A stretch of DNA of 64,000 nucleotides from Punctularia strigosozonata HHB-11173 SS5 (lineage: Eukaryota > Basidiomycota > Agaricomycetes > Corticiales > Punctulariaceae). The notes beneath the pieces are model-generated. The model was given only the letters and a program-made list of their open reading frames with translations. It was not told where the DNA came from and did no database searches. Numbering within the stretch: position 1 is the first letter of the stretch; each line of letters begins with the position of its first letter. The DNA is taken from the NCBI RefSeq assembly GCF_000264995.1, contig NW_006767434.1:1568349-1632348 (forward strand). Direction: 5' to 3'. A program made the translations under genes and the position numbers. Positions 37,240-43,821 of this stretch are shown piece after piece.

Positions 37240-39907
37240 CTATTCAGGAGGACAAGATAAGACTATGTCTTGGCTTTCCTACGGGATGAACGAACCTGGT
37301 TGTGATAATGTTTGACCCTAACACGCCCAGCATGAGCTCGCGCCGTGAAACGAACATGTAAGCGCTCACCATGACTCGGCGATATGGGTGGAGCTAGTGT
37401 GGTAAGGGTTTCGGATCGTTCGGTTGTTTTCCTGATCGCTGTGTCTTCCTGCAGTACGGACGCGAGCGACGAAAAAATACGCGGGCAAGTCGTGTGGACG
37501 GGGTTCGGGGACGAGAGAAGGCAATGAAGAGAGCGGGCGTGCGGGATCTGGGCCTGAGTTTCGTGCCAGACAGCTGCGTATGCCGTTTCGGGAAATGGGC
37601 CGTAATCTGGTGGAGCACAGCACCTTGCTCATCGGTTTAGCCCCGAATAGCAAAATTGCAGCAGCACAGTGGGGCTTTGGGACGGGATTGGTGACCCGTT
37701 CGAGTATTAACGGACAGCTTCAGGCCCATGCTGCTCACATCCTACACCAGCTGCAGGATCTCGCTGAGCTCGGAGCTGTCGTACATGAAGATGCGATCTC
37801 GAGACCGTCTACAGCATTCCGGAGCTACAATGTTCGCGCCGTTCTCAGCCATCTCGTTGCATTGCCCTCCGAAGATGCGTCGATATGGCTACGGATCTCC
37901 AGAAACATACGCTCGATCCGCGCACGATTCTAGGACGATGACCTCGATACTCGTGGTTGCAAGGAGGCCGCAATCCTTCGAAATCGATGAGCTCATTGGC
38001 TGCATCTCGAGAGGAATCATATTTTCGAACTACAATAGACAAGTCCCAACGAGAGGACTAGCTACTATGGTCTACGGACATGGCGGCGGTCTTCAGACCG
38101 CTGTTGAGATAGTTCGGCAACAGCCGACGAACGGAGCCGCTCTGGTGTACTATGGTTCGTTTCAGCATGAGCATTGAGGCAACCCATTAGCAATGGACAA
38201 GAATGGACGAGACACCAGTAATCGTAAACCGAGTACTGGTGTTGTACAAGAATACAGCTACGAATCGAGCGCTAACGTTAACGCTCTTTCGCGGTGTTCT
38301 GGCCGGATTCGGGAATGTAATAGCATGTAGCGCAGGATACATAGCTCACTATTCACATCTCCCGAGGTTGGCGATGTAGAAATTGGAACGAGGACCCTAC
38401 GTAGTTATAGAATGAGATCCCGATCAGGGCATGAACGGCAGTAGCGCACCTTATGATTAGAAAGGGGTACAACGCGCCGGCGAACAAGCAAACGTACGCG
38501 CCTGGATTGAGATAGCATCTAGGAGTATATGTACGCCGGTGAGTCATCAATGTGCTAACCTTGAGTACTCATAAACAAAGAAGCTTTATACATGGCTATC
38601 CTATCTGCATATGCGCTCGGACGTGTTTCGAGACGGCATGCGCGCTTGTATTTGCTAGCAATGCGGTTTCCCATTGCATGCATGTGAATGATGATGAGGA
38701 AGCACGTTCGAGTTCGTCGAAATAATGCAATACGATGACGACCAATTGCCAGATCCGTGACGCATGAGGCATTCATTTGGAACCCTCGTCGCGCAAGTAT
38801 GAGTGTTTGGGTGATTTCGAAACAGCGTGTGCGCTTCAGCCAGGTCGTCAGACCTCTGCATCGATGCTTCGCGAGCAAACCAGTTCATCTGGCCTCAGCC
38901 ACAATGGAGATCCATATCGGCCGAAGGTAACTTTTCACCGATTGCGAAAGGGCAGGGACACACGTTAATGAATAGATGTACGTGATCTAACCCTTTGGCA
39001 GGTCTTACCGGGGGCCCGCAAGGCCGTCAAGCTTGGGGTCACACGACCACCAATTACAGTGCTAACGTGTCGATCGCGGCTGCGCGAAAGGACCACATAA
39101 GTAAGATAGGGCTCATTCAGTTTCAACAGGTCCCACGGGTCTTGCTAGTCGAATAAAATAATCTACACTCAAAATTCACAGAAATCGCCGCCACAGATCT
39201 CAAGATAATGTACATCCAAAGAGAATTGTGGTTTTAGATTTAGAGAGTGTGCCCCGTAGCGAGTGGAATTCGCTGCGCAGCACGTATCACACCTGTTGAA
39301 ACTGAATGAGCCCTATCTTACCAGTATAGGTGAGAATATGTAGACGATGCGAAGCGGGCTTCTTGATTGAGATCGATGCAAGCAACAACCCACGGGTTGC
39401 GAGCAAGATAAGGAGGAGCAGGGGCAAACGGTCAAAGGCACCAACACCACAAGTCTCCCGAGAGTGTGTTGTTGGAAGAACACTACGGTGTTCGGTAGTT
39501 CCATTGTGGATAATCCTGGGCCCAGCGAAAGCTTCATGACGACGGAAGTAAACAAGGGGGAGATGGTTTTTTGTCGCGGAGTCTGGGCGGAGCCCCACTG
39601 CCCCCGCTACACAGCCCTGGAAGCCGAGACCGTCAGATCGCCGGCGCCCGAAAAATAAAATTATAAGACCCCTGAACATAAGTAAGCATCCTTCCGACCC
39701 TCGCATCGTACTACAACCACCTCTGCAATCTTGTCTGAAGCAGCAACAGCGTATCAACGTTCAATCTACTGCTAGCATCTCATTTCAACACAGATCCAGC
39801 AGGGTCCACCTCGTGTGCTAAGTGTAGCGTCAGCAGTGGTGCGTCATGTGATTTCGCGAAGGGCAGTTCTTCTGGCCCGCTGCCTTCACACCGTACTGAT
39901 GTCTAAT
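37240..39907. other. Gene-poor stretch left of the DNA transposon
   Basis: About 2.7 kb in which I recognise no gene. It should hold the first exon and promoter of the PP2C gene at its left end. Scattered frames (37580-37933 plus, 39287-39757 minus) lack known motifs and may be decayed. A perfect 31-bp inverted repeat at 39101-39321 is listed separately. Confidence 0.5.
39101..39321. repeat. Perfect 31-bp inverted repeat with 159-bp spacer (fold-back or MITE-like)
   Basis: The arm starting GTAAGATAGGGCTCATTCAG at 39101-39131 is matched exactly, in reverse complement, at 39291-39321. The spacer of 159 bases shows no reading frame of note. No target duplication is visible at the outer edges, so this could be a fold-back element, a non-autonomous transposon or the trace of a local inversion. 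Confidence 0.9.
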
Positions 39908-39912
39908 ACTTA

Positions 39913-39953
39913 ATGGGTACGGGCAACGCCCGCCAGAACCGTGAAATCGAGAA
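39913..39953 (+). repeat. Left terminal inverted repeat of the DNA transposon
   Basis: The first 41 bases, beginning ATGGGTACGGGC, carry an internal small palindrome GGGCAACGCCC and end CGAGAA. They match the right end in reverse complement except at one position (C versus T after CCAGAA). The target duplication ACTTA precedes it at 39908-39912. Confidence 0.95.
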
Positions 39954-40236
39954 TGTGTGGCGCTGGATGATCCCACGCCACCCCTCCCAACGGGATTAAC
40001 GATTCATCGTCCGAACAGCAAGTGTTCGGGCAGGAACACTGGGGCCATAGTTGTACAGGAGAAAGTGTTCATAATAATAGTCGCATGTAATCTCACTTCC
40101 GGAAATATGATAAGATTGGCTGTACCTCTCGCAATGGCACTCGAAGGGGTCATTGTAGGCTCTGGAGAAAGGTCTCAGAGATAAATTCAAGGCCAAACTG
40201 ATACTGTGTAGGCGAAGATTATTTGAAGATTTAATC

Positions 40237-43200
40237 GTGAGTTTAGTCCGAGCCTGGGCAGTGATACTACACTGCGAAGCAAAGGCCTGCAAAATGCTTG
40301 ACAGTACTCTTCTCACGCCTCGATGCATGTCCGGAAGAGACGACGGTGTCGCAAAATACATCTTTGTTACTCGTGCGATGGCTCCTACCGCTGCCCAAAC
40401 AGCCTCTCGTCGACTCAACTGTGCTATAGCCCGTGCATCGAGGGTGGAGGCCGTGTCTGGAGCGGCAACTGCTGCTATCATCACCGATCTGCGCGGAAAA
40501 CTCTCACAGGCTGAGATAACGATATCGGCTCTCAGGCTCAACCTCAAGGCCCAGAAGCAGAAGACCCGGTGGAACCTCGAGGCCAAAAAGGTCCTCAGAG
40601 CACGCCTACATGCCTCAAAACACACAGAGAGACAACAGGTTGCTATCCTCGAGATGCAGGAAAGCCGGATCTTGTTGATGTCTTCCCGAGAGATGGATCT
40701 GATTCTTCAGCTGGAGACAACGTCTGATCGCAACCAGGTTCTCTTTCGTCAAGTTGTGGCTGTAAAGAATGAGATCCGATGCTGCCAGACTCTGTGTCAA
40801 AGAGAAACACGCCGTATAACTTTGCTTCGAGTCCAGGTGTCAGATGCTGTGAGTTCTCTGGATGCTAGCCAACGGACTGTCTCCAAGCTTCGAGGAAAGC
40901 TGTCCGCTACTGCCAAGGATCGGCAAATACTTCGGGTGCAGCTCTCGCGTCTCCGAACTCGTGCCTATCAGGCTGGGAAGGCACAGGAGATCATCTCTCG
41001 CGCGCAGTGCCTCAAAAATCGGGGAACCATCACGGAATCGGCAAGATTTCTCGTACACGAGTTGACCCGACTTGGATTGCCATCTGCACACGTGGGAGAG
41101 GCATTGACTATCATTGCCGAGATATGGGGAATTGCTATCTTGGGCTCAATAAGCCGCCGTAGTGTCTCTCGCATAGTACTCGAAGGCCTTACTGCTGCGA
41201 AGCTGCAGATTGTCGAGGCTGTACATGCGGCAGAAGGTATCTTGCCAACTCATTGCGGTAAGAAGAGTAATGACACTCATCGTAGGTATCTCTCTCTCGG
41301 CGGATGGGACATCACACAAGAATCGGCATTACGAAAGCAAGCATATCCATACAATCTCAAGTCAGTCTAGTATGACAGATGTTGATGCACCGTCTGGTCT
41401 GCTCGGCGATACCTCCTCACTCGCAGGATCCTCATCTATTTCGACGTTCATGCTCCCGATCATGAACGCTCCGAATCACCAGGCTGTGACGCAGCTTCGT
41501 GGCTGGGAAGAACTTGTTGCAGATGACTTATTTGGTGTATGGAATGCAAGTCCTCTGTCGTCGTCGACTGCCGTCAGTGCACTGGAGTTTCCCAGTAAGG
41601 TGACAATCTATGGCTCCGATCACTCCAGTGACAATACTGCCGTCGCACGCGGAATCAAAGCATGGAAGGAAACATCGGATAGGCTGCTCCGGGGCGAGAA
41701 ATGTCTTCTCGAGAAAGACTCGGCGCAGCTATGTGCAATTGTCTGGGCCGAAGTCAGTCACAAAATCGTGTCCCTCGGTGGTGTGAGATTCTGGACAGAC
41801 CTGTCGGCGACGGAGCGCGGGCGACATCTTGATACTGCATGGAAGACTGTCTGCCGCCGGTCTGGAGAAGAGGGCTATGAAATGCTTGGTGACTCCGATA
41901 AACTCAATATCGACTTTTTTGCCCAAGTCGGCTGCTGTATGCACAAGGAGATGAATGGCTTCAAGGGAGGATGCTCGTCTATGGCGCTTACTTGGGGAAA
42001 TAACCACTTGCCCCTACCGATATCTCTCATGAATGCTGCCAATGCTCAGTCGTATCATCATGCTCCCACCGACGCTGAACGCGAGCGCCTAGATTCAGTT
42101 TCACCACGCGGAGGTGTAAAGGCGGCATGGCTTGCTGGGGAGGTTTATAACAACAAAGACTCGAAGAAAGGTCAGCATGATATCTATCGCATCCACTTCG
42201 AAGATGGCCTCTCCTACGCCGTACCATTTCCCGAAACAAGTTCCAACCGTTATGGTTCCTACGGAGAAGCTGCCATTCACTTGATTTTACGGCTCGTCAA
42301 ACATAGGACTTTCCTCGAAGACATACGTGACAAGAAACAAGATCGTACGTTCACGAACATCGAAAAGAATCTATACACTGCTCTCAATGACACGGCAACA
42401 CTGACCGAGCTCGCTGCCATGGCGCTGTACCAGATTTCCGTTGGCCATCAATATACGAGCATTATTCGCACATCGGAGAGCGCCGGAGTCAATCATCTCA
42501 CTCTCGGTCCACTACATTCTCGCCTTCTCTCCCATGTCACCAACCTCGCCAACAACATCTCGCTTCTAACTGGCTCAGATGCAACATATGGTAGCGCCTG
42601 CTTTGAACAGCAGCCATTCAGCTACCCTGAAGTCTGGTACCGGATTCAACAACTTGTGCCGGAATTGCCTCATCTCGATATCGTCCTGTCGGGGCTCTTC
42701 AAAGGAGTCGCTGATACACTTCCTCGGTTTCTCAAGGAGTTCGCACCAGACAGTCCTGTAACGACCGTTTTTGCCTCGACCCGGACTAACGCGCAAGGCC
42801 CAGCAGCGTACGCAAAACCCACAAACGATGATAACGAAGGTGCGTCGCCATGTCACCGTGCATCATGAAAATATGCTAACATGGGCACAGGCTCTTTGGG
42901 ATCGTTCCGTCAAGCGAAGCGACGTGCGCCAAATATGACCCTCGATCAATACAACGGACGTGCGATGTACAAGCGCAATCGCGTACGACACTATATCCGC
43001 ACACTCCATCCTGGTACTTACTCATTCATCCGGCGACACGCACGAGACCTTTCCGCCAGTCAATCAGAAAAACGAAGACGGGATGCGATAGCACAATACG
43101 ACCACGAAATTATTGCAGACCACCGACGCATCGATGCCGACAAGCTCGCGAAGATCTGTGCGGAGCAAGCACGTCTTGCCCAGCTGACGCTCGTTCTCGA

Positions 43201-43465
43201 AGCGGACAAGGTTGCCAAGCTCTCAGTTAAGGAACTCGACGACCAATTGGACTGGCACCGGGCTTTCACGGACGCCGCGATACCCTCTCGTGGCCGCAAG
43301 GGCCGTGGACTAAAGATCAGCAAACAACAGACCCTCGTTACTGCTCTCACCAAATACCATGAGCTTCGCAGTCCCCGCGGCACTCAACAACCACCTCCCA
43401 CCCCAAGCCTTGCCATGGGTCGACCGCAGGACGATGGAGGGTCAGACACGGAGGTGGATGAATAG
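40237..43465 (+). CDS. Putative RNase H-fold transposase of the DNA transposon
   Basis: I do not know a named family for this protein. Three exons, 40237-41236, 41286-42839 and 42891-43465, join in frame to about 1,042 residues; both introns restore motifs. Residues 60-270 are a long Arg/Gln/Leu-rich coiled coil. A helix-turn-helix-like segment (SISRRSVSRIVLEGLTAAKL) lies near 305-325. SLSADGTSHKNRHYESKHI follows at about 336-355. Later come DFFAQVGCCMHKEMNGFKGG (about 543-562), SPRGGVKAAWLAGEVYNNKD (about 610) and TNDDNEGSLGSFR (about 848-861). The C-terminus is basic. By analogy with hAT-like enzymes I infer catalytic Asp near 340, Asp just before a C-x2-H motif near 543, and Glu near 853. 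The start could also be a downstream ATG such as 40378. Confidence 0.75.
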
Positions 43466-43679
43466 AATGCTCTGAGCATCCTATTGTAACTTCGGTATGT
43501 GATTCCCCAGTATCGAACATTGCCGAATACAACTTGCTATGACTGTACAGTGTTCTTCCGTCGTCGCGTTCAGTGTATCGTCAAATATATTTCGTGTCAT
43601 GATCGTCAGCATTGCTCGTCGGACGATAAATTTTAGAGAGAGGACGGCGACGCGGCTGTGTAATGTCACGTGTCGCGAT

Positions 43680-43720
43680 TTCTCGATTTCACGATTCTGG
43701 CGGGCGTTGCCCGTACCCAT
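43680..43720 (-). repeat. Right terminal inverted repeat of the DNA transposon
   Basis: The last 41 bases, ending GCCCGTACCCAT, are the reverse complement of the left end with one mismatch. The target duplication ACTTA follows at 43721-43725. The start codon of the MYND-finger gene is about 100 bases downstream. Confidence 0.95.
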
Positions 43721-43821
43721 ACTTAACCCCTGGATATGCAGTCAAACCTTGGAAAAGCCTCGGTCGCCCGACACACTAGCCCTATCATCCTCCCCGACGT
43801 TCTCGGCAACCCCTCATCAAC

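Follow-up and report, generated by a model that had tools for sequence, protein, structure and literature searches.

Structure of the element

The window, a stretch of 64,000 nt from the genome of Punctularia strigosozonata HHB-11173 SS5, contains an element of 3806 bp with a single three-exon gene between its terminal inverted repeats (TIRs). Each TIR is 40 bp long and starts with TGGGTACGGG, and the two arms differ by one mismatch (Table 1). Exact inverted 18-mers no more than 20 kb apart were found at three sites in the window; only the arms of this element are spaced by kilobases, while those of the other two sites lie a few hundred bases apart. Hairpin formation within the TIR was no better than in shuffled sequences (z -0.56).

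The reading frame is intact, in agreement with a sequence-only reading of the locus that had described one intact three-exon gene. The first splice is supported by a relative at C3, in which the frame runs on, without an intron, across the site of intron 1. Translation from the first ATG gives a protein of 1023 aa, and from ATG 40378 one of 995 aa. Since the C3 protein aligns from residue 29 (MAPTAAQ/MALTAAQ) and thus starts opposite ATG 40378, the protein probably has 995 aa. The length of 1042 residues given earlier was in error, as it needs a GTG start at 40237.

Table 1. Coordinates of the element and its gene within the window
Feature	Position	Strand	Remarks
Left TSD TACTTAA (7 bp)	39907..39913	.	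exact match to 43720-43726
Left TIR, 40 bp	39914..39953	+	one mismatch to right arm
5' subterminal region with ACGCCACC stretch	39954..40060	+	common to C3, C4 and C7 5'-type ends (end alignment)
Exon 1	40294..41236	+	first ATG 40294, likely start ATG 40378; coiled-coil-like N-terminus and lead-in to putative catalytic region
Intron 1 (49 bp)	41237..41285	+	GT/AG; C3 relative intronless and in frame here
Exon 2	41286..42839	+	putative DDE core: D321 (ADGTSHKN), D426 (GSDHS), CxxH 531-534 (CCMH)
Intron 2 (51 bp)	42840..42890	+	GT/AG and CTAAC branch-like motif only; covered by no relative
Exon 3	42891..43465	+	mildly basic C-terminal region; stop codon 43463-43465
Right TIR, 40 bp	43680..43719	-	inverted match to left arm
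Right TSD TACTTAA (7 bp)	43720..43726	.	exact match to 39907-39913

Length of the target-site duplication

The inverted arms 39913-39953 and 43680-43720 are complementary at 40 of 41 positions, and the junctions of the window copy read TACTTAA/TGGG and CCCA/TACTTAA. Because the first and last bases of TACTTAA are complementary, the assignment of one base per side to the TIR or to the target-site duplication (TSD) is ambiguous, and the copy in the window cannot decide the length. The copy at C4 can. It has the ends TGGG...CCCA with AGAACAC (7 bp) on both flanks, and the base before its TGGG is C where a 5-bp reading needs A. The TSD is therefore 7 bp, TACTTAA, instead of the 5-bp ACTTA claimed at first. 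By the same correction the near-perfect ends with one mismatch are confirmed, but their length is 40 bp rather than 41 bp, the outermost A/T pair belonging to the TSD. The lesson is a general one, since the length of any TSD with complementary first and last bases is unreadable from one insertion and a single copy can mislead.

An exact 7-bp TSD flanks all three two-ended copies (window, C4 and C5); inverted ends with a duplication of constant length at several loci are typical of class II TIR elements. The three duplications, TACTTAA, AGAACAC and CTCTGAG, have no common target sequence. When the flanks of the element were joined and compared with this one assembly, they matched their own locus only, with no empty site.

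Relatives in the genome

The genome was searched with a 21-bp TIR core, allowing up to three mismatches, with the reversed pattern as a control. Ten sites were found, compared with two for the control: two each at the window copy and C4, and one each at C3, C13, C7, C5, C1 and C8. The C1 and C8 sites have three mismatches and were treated as chance, since the reversed control also gave two. In addition to the copy in the window, the genome has relatives with both ends at C4 and C5 and single ends at C3, C7 and C13, all diverged. The left TIR core is also present at the C3, C4, C7 and C13 ends and, with changes, at C5. The expectation of many copies with the same ends and different duplications is borne out only in part: C4 and C5 have unlike 7-bp TSDs, and C3, C7 and C13 offer single ends.

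When the ends are aligned, window left, C3, C4 right and C7 form a 5' type, which carries the ACGCCACC stretch, and window right and C4 left form a 3' type that C5 fits more weakly. The two ends of the element hence differ consistently. The C13 end fits neither type beyond its first two dozen bases. The single ends at C13:774194 (stretch L021) and C7:1736572 (L022) have 20-26 bp of the TIR core; that at C7 retains the 5'-type subterminal stretch and that at C13 is without one. No convincing second end was found within about 10 kb of either.

The C4 relative (C4:900932-901907, 976 bp) matches the C3 element in its ends and inner parts, and it keeps a 5' gene remnant in which 46 residues align with the beginning of the C3 protein at 80% identity. 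Judged by this structure, it is a deletion derivative. The C5 relative (C5:708407-709070, 664 bp) is decayed; it lies between two copies of CTCTGAG and begins with TGAGTACAGGCAATGCCC. At the right end CTGGCGGGCGTTG is retained, but about 9 bp of the TIR are missing. In the 9.95 kb downstream of the C5 left end the flanking 7-mer occurs exactly twice and a 13-base TIR core once, and the two adjoin but for one base; as the right end was located via its flanking 7-mer, this confirmation is not wholly blind.

The protein of the C3 relative, encoded behind the same kind of end, is 55% identical to the window protein. Over 471 codons a simple counting script gave a pN of 0.283 versus a pS of 0.725, with silent sites near saturation, which indicates purifying selection while the window and C3 lineages diverged. 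The C3 gene ends after about residue 521 at inserted sequence (stretch L008, from about 3590), and the adjoining 9.9 kb, as far as it could be read, showed no second end. Two pieces of the insert have further copies in the following stretch, L020, one of about 210 bp (92% identity) and one of about 320 bp (82% identity).

Protein searches of the genome at E<=10 returned C2 (the window), C3 and C4 only. There is one intact copy in this genome and no near-identical sister copy, which agrees with a low copy number. The intact frame, the perfect TSD and the single TIR mismatch agree with a fairly recent insertion, and the element may be active at present.

A single intact copy is also what a domesticated host gene, or a chance pair of repeats, might present. 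We consider it most improbable that the locus is either of these instead of a mobile element: the TIRs lie directly against a perfect TSD of 7 bp, such ends are also flanked by 7-bp TSDs at two other loci, and when the flanks are joined, any frame across the insertion point spans at most 53 codons. The TIRs, the exact flanking duplication, the intact gene and the same ends at other loci bear out the original description of a complete DNA transposon.

The encoded protein

The gene product is most likely a transposase that uses DDE chemistry. The likely catalytic stretch runs from ISLSADGTSHKN (D321) through KVTIYGSDHS (D426) to GCCMHKEMN (CxxH at 531-534), with the spacing D321-105-D426-105-C531. 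D321 and D426, candidates for two of the three acidic residues of a DDE/D triad in an RNase H fold, are invariant between the window and C3 proteins (two sequences). The CxxH was read in the window protein alone, the C-terminal half being missing from the C3 relative. The composition of the protein (1023 residues, among them 14 Cys and 33 His) predicts about 0.45 chance occurrences of CxxH, so that the motif is a hint only. The entire protein contains this one CxxH and no CxxC; there is no Hx3-4H after residue 334, and one Cys lies in the last 200 residues. Residues 820-1023 contain 37 K/R versus 27 D/E. According to published accounts, transposases of the hAT, Kolobok, MuDR, P and Dada superfamilies carry a C/DxxH motif (PMC8869645, PMC3706591). 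D321, D426 and the single CxxH hint weakly at a place in the hAT/P/MULE/Kolobok/Dada group. AlphaFold models from two sequences, with a mean pLDDT of 38.9 for the whole protein and 34.6 for the core, were both too poor to use, although residues 111-220 (approximately) form a block of pLDDT 66-78 inside the otherwise poor model.

Searches for a known family

No transposase match was obtained in Pfam at E<=10, a threshold at which the HMMER filters drop most matches above about 0.1. The Pfam matches were all weak and below the cut-offs, and nearly all of them were to coiled-coil families and fell on the N-terminus; residues 227-805 and 806-1023 gave none. Neither BED nor other zinc-finger profiles of Pfam matched, nor did its P-element/THAP profiles at E<=10. 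NCBIfam gave no match to the protein. Against PDB sequences, a single-sequence search gave no match and a two-sequence profile one weak match to Mis12 (E 0.48).

As controls, profiles of known families were run on the same genome. PF18758 (KDZ) matched at least 48 stretches, PF05699 (hAT) at least seven and PF10551 (MULE) at least three, counts that are lower bounds since these searches score the best candidates only. The element was not among the matches reported for any of the three. Since these profiles find other loci in this genome, the silence at the element does not reflect a dead tool; the profiles do not place the element in KDZ, hAT or MULE/Mutator.

No relative was found in viral_contigs (protein and alignment scans) or genome_contigs, collections of viruses and prokaryotes that are silent on fungi. 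A CCMHKxxN-type DNA pattern occurred at five loci, where tblastn found nothing beyond the pattern itself (best E 0.66). The TIR core string was present in none of the viral contigs and in none of the papers, and the text available to our literature search held no description of a matching element. Presumably, many similar unnamed hypothetical proteins exist in mushroom-forming fungi.

Comparison with known superfamilies

With its defined ends, 7-bp TSDs at three sites, an intact gene, a related gene under purifying selection and a deletion derivative, the element is very probably a complete, apparently autonomous cut-and-paste (class II, TIR) DNA transposon of unassigned superfamily. The sequence-only reading had assigned it to no known superfamily. 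The absence of a profile match, with working controls, supports this, but the argument from a 5-bp TSD fails, as the TSD is 7 bp and this length is known elsewhere. It has been reported for hAT7 of rust fungi and two Laccaria Kyakuja families (PMC12730594), for Dada, with 6 or 7 bp (extract of PMC8869645), and, by implication of the available text, for Galileo of the P superfamily (PMC3573991). TSD length therefore no longer singles the element out.

A likeness to Transib had also been drawn from the 5-bp duplication, and ACTTA does make up five of the seven duplicated bases. Transib-like and other CMCT elements are, like this one, cut-and-paste DDE elements, but in CMCT transposases C(2)C and H(3-4)H motifs lie between the second D and the E, and the TSDs measure 2-5 bp (PMC12730594); both the C(2)C and such a TSD are missing here. 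The 7-bp duplications at C4 and C5, together with a protein without any CxxC, rule out the 5-bp reading and make membership in this group extremely unlikely. Kolobok uses a TTAA target duplication, and the TSDs TACTTAA, AGAACAC and CTCTGAG do not conform to it.

The Kyakuja families of Laccaria share with the element a fungal host and a 7-bp TSD, but they have CA..TG ends without TIRs (PMC12730594), and PF18758 misses the element. Dada is a member of the C/DxxH group with a TSD of 6 or 7 bp (extracts of PMC3706591 and PMC8869645). According to the same extracts, its transposases have N-terminal CCCC and C-terminal CCHC zinc fingers (PMC3706591, PMC8869645), Dada-U6 and Dada-U1 are without TIRs, and Dada elements with definable ends sit in small RNA genes (PMC3706591). 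The element differs in its 40-bp TIRs, its three unlike TSDs and a protein that has no CxxC and lacks the zinc fingers of Dada. A tRNA search of the window, and of the three insertion sites with their flanks joined, gave nothing, and Rfam had no match in the window or at the C4 and C5 loci, where a gene split by the element could escape it. Galileo has TIRs and 7-bp flanking duplications, but its TIRs measure about 300-1200 bp in the available text (PMC3573991) compared with 40 bp here, and no P-element profile matches.

By TSD range and CxxH, hAT remains the closest candidate. Both are cut-and-paste elements; the hAT TSD is 8 bp, or 5, 6 and 7 bp in hAT5, hAT6 and hAT7, and a CxxH occurs between the second D and the E of hAT transposases. 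At the element, however, neither a hAT profile nor the hAT dimerisation domain matched, and the spacing D321-105-D426-105-C531 is unlike that of the hAT protein Kat1 (D310, D377 and C402 in an extract of PMC4763223). For these reasons we file it under an unassigned superfamily.

Two sub-readings of this assignment can be weighed. By the first, the element belongs to a named C/DxxH superfamily, most likely hAT including its 7-bp-TSD forms, next P or MULE, but has diverged so strongly that profiles do not reach it. The NRYGSYGEAAIHL stretch after the CxxH, which may resemble the RW..S segment of hAT, favours this. So do the 7-bp TSDs of hAT7 (PMC12730594) and, apparently, of Galileo (available text of PMC3573991). 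Against it stand the spacing unlike Kat1, the missing BED or other zinc-finger match, and the failure of Pfam to return any transposase at E<=10 in a genome where the hAT and MULE profiles do detect members elsewhere. We regard it as a strong possibility that falls somewhat short of probable.

By the second, the element represents an unnamed lineage of fungal TIR transposons that is separate at the level of a superfamily, which we regard as a tentative possibility. It is suggested by the absence of a family match despite working controls in the same genome and by the combination of a 40-bp TGGGTACGGGC TIR, a 7-bp TSD, a coiled-coil-like N-terminus and no CxxC. Profile silence is, however, weak evidence, the comparison having covered Pfam, NCBIfam and PDB sequences, and an alignment of two sequences is too thin for remote comparison. 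More tentative still is our full definition of such a lineage, namely a superfamily-level fungal group with a 7-bp TSD, a conserved 40-bp TIR beginning with TGGGTACGGGC, distinct 5' and 3' subterminal signals, a transposase with coiled-coil and DDE-like parts that the public profiles searched have missed, and short derivatives of its own. If the lineage is distinct, some of the unannotated repeats and hypothetical proteins in fungal genomes could be recognised as a single transposon group whose ends are defined, and the intact copy would offer a direct assay.

Proposed mechanism

Under either sub-reading of the cut-and-paste assignment, transposition most likely proceeds as follows. The protein would bind asymmetric ends, each made of the common 40-bp TIR and a different 5' or 3' subterminal stretch. 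The putative transposase would then excise the element and join it to target strands staggered by 7 bp, so that 7 bp, whatever their sequence, would be duplicated at each insertion. Relatives that are shortened but keep these ends were probably mobilised in trans; the short C4 and C5 derivatives imply that the ends alone suffice when transposase is supplied.

Other mobile sequences

The genome is rich in KDZ sequences, and many of the stretches matched by PF18758 (at least 48) are without stop codons inside the match. Just upstream of the element, at 39101-39321 of the window, lies a MITE of about 220 bp with perfect inverted ends of about 31 bp. It has 15 further copies in the genome (211-225 bp, 75-99% identity). 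In all 10 loci viewed, including that of the window, the ends read TAAGAT...ATCTTA, which fits a TA target duplication. At C7:1200902-1203897 (L045) both MITE ends lie about 3 kb apart around an ORF of 678 aa, and this locus is likely an autonomous Tc1/mariner-like partner of the MITE. The ORF has a match to DDE_3 just below the cut-off (E 2e-6, 28.2 versus 28.6 bits).
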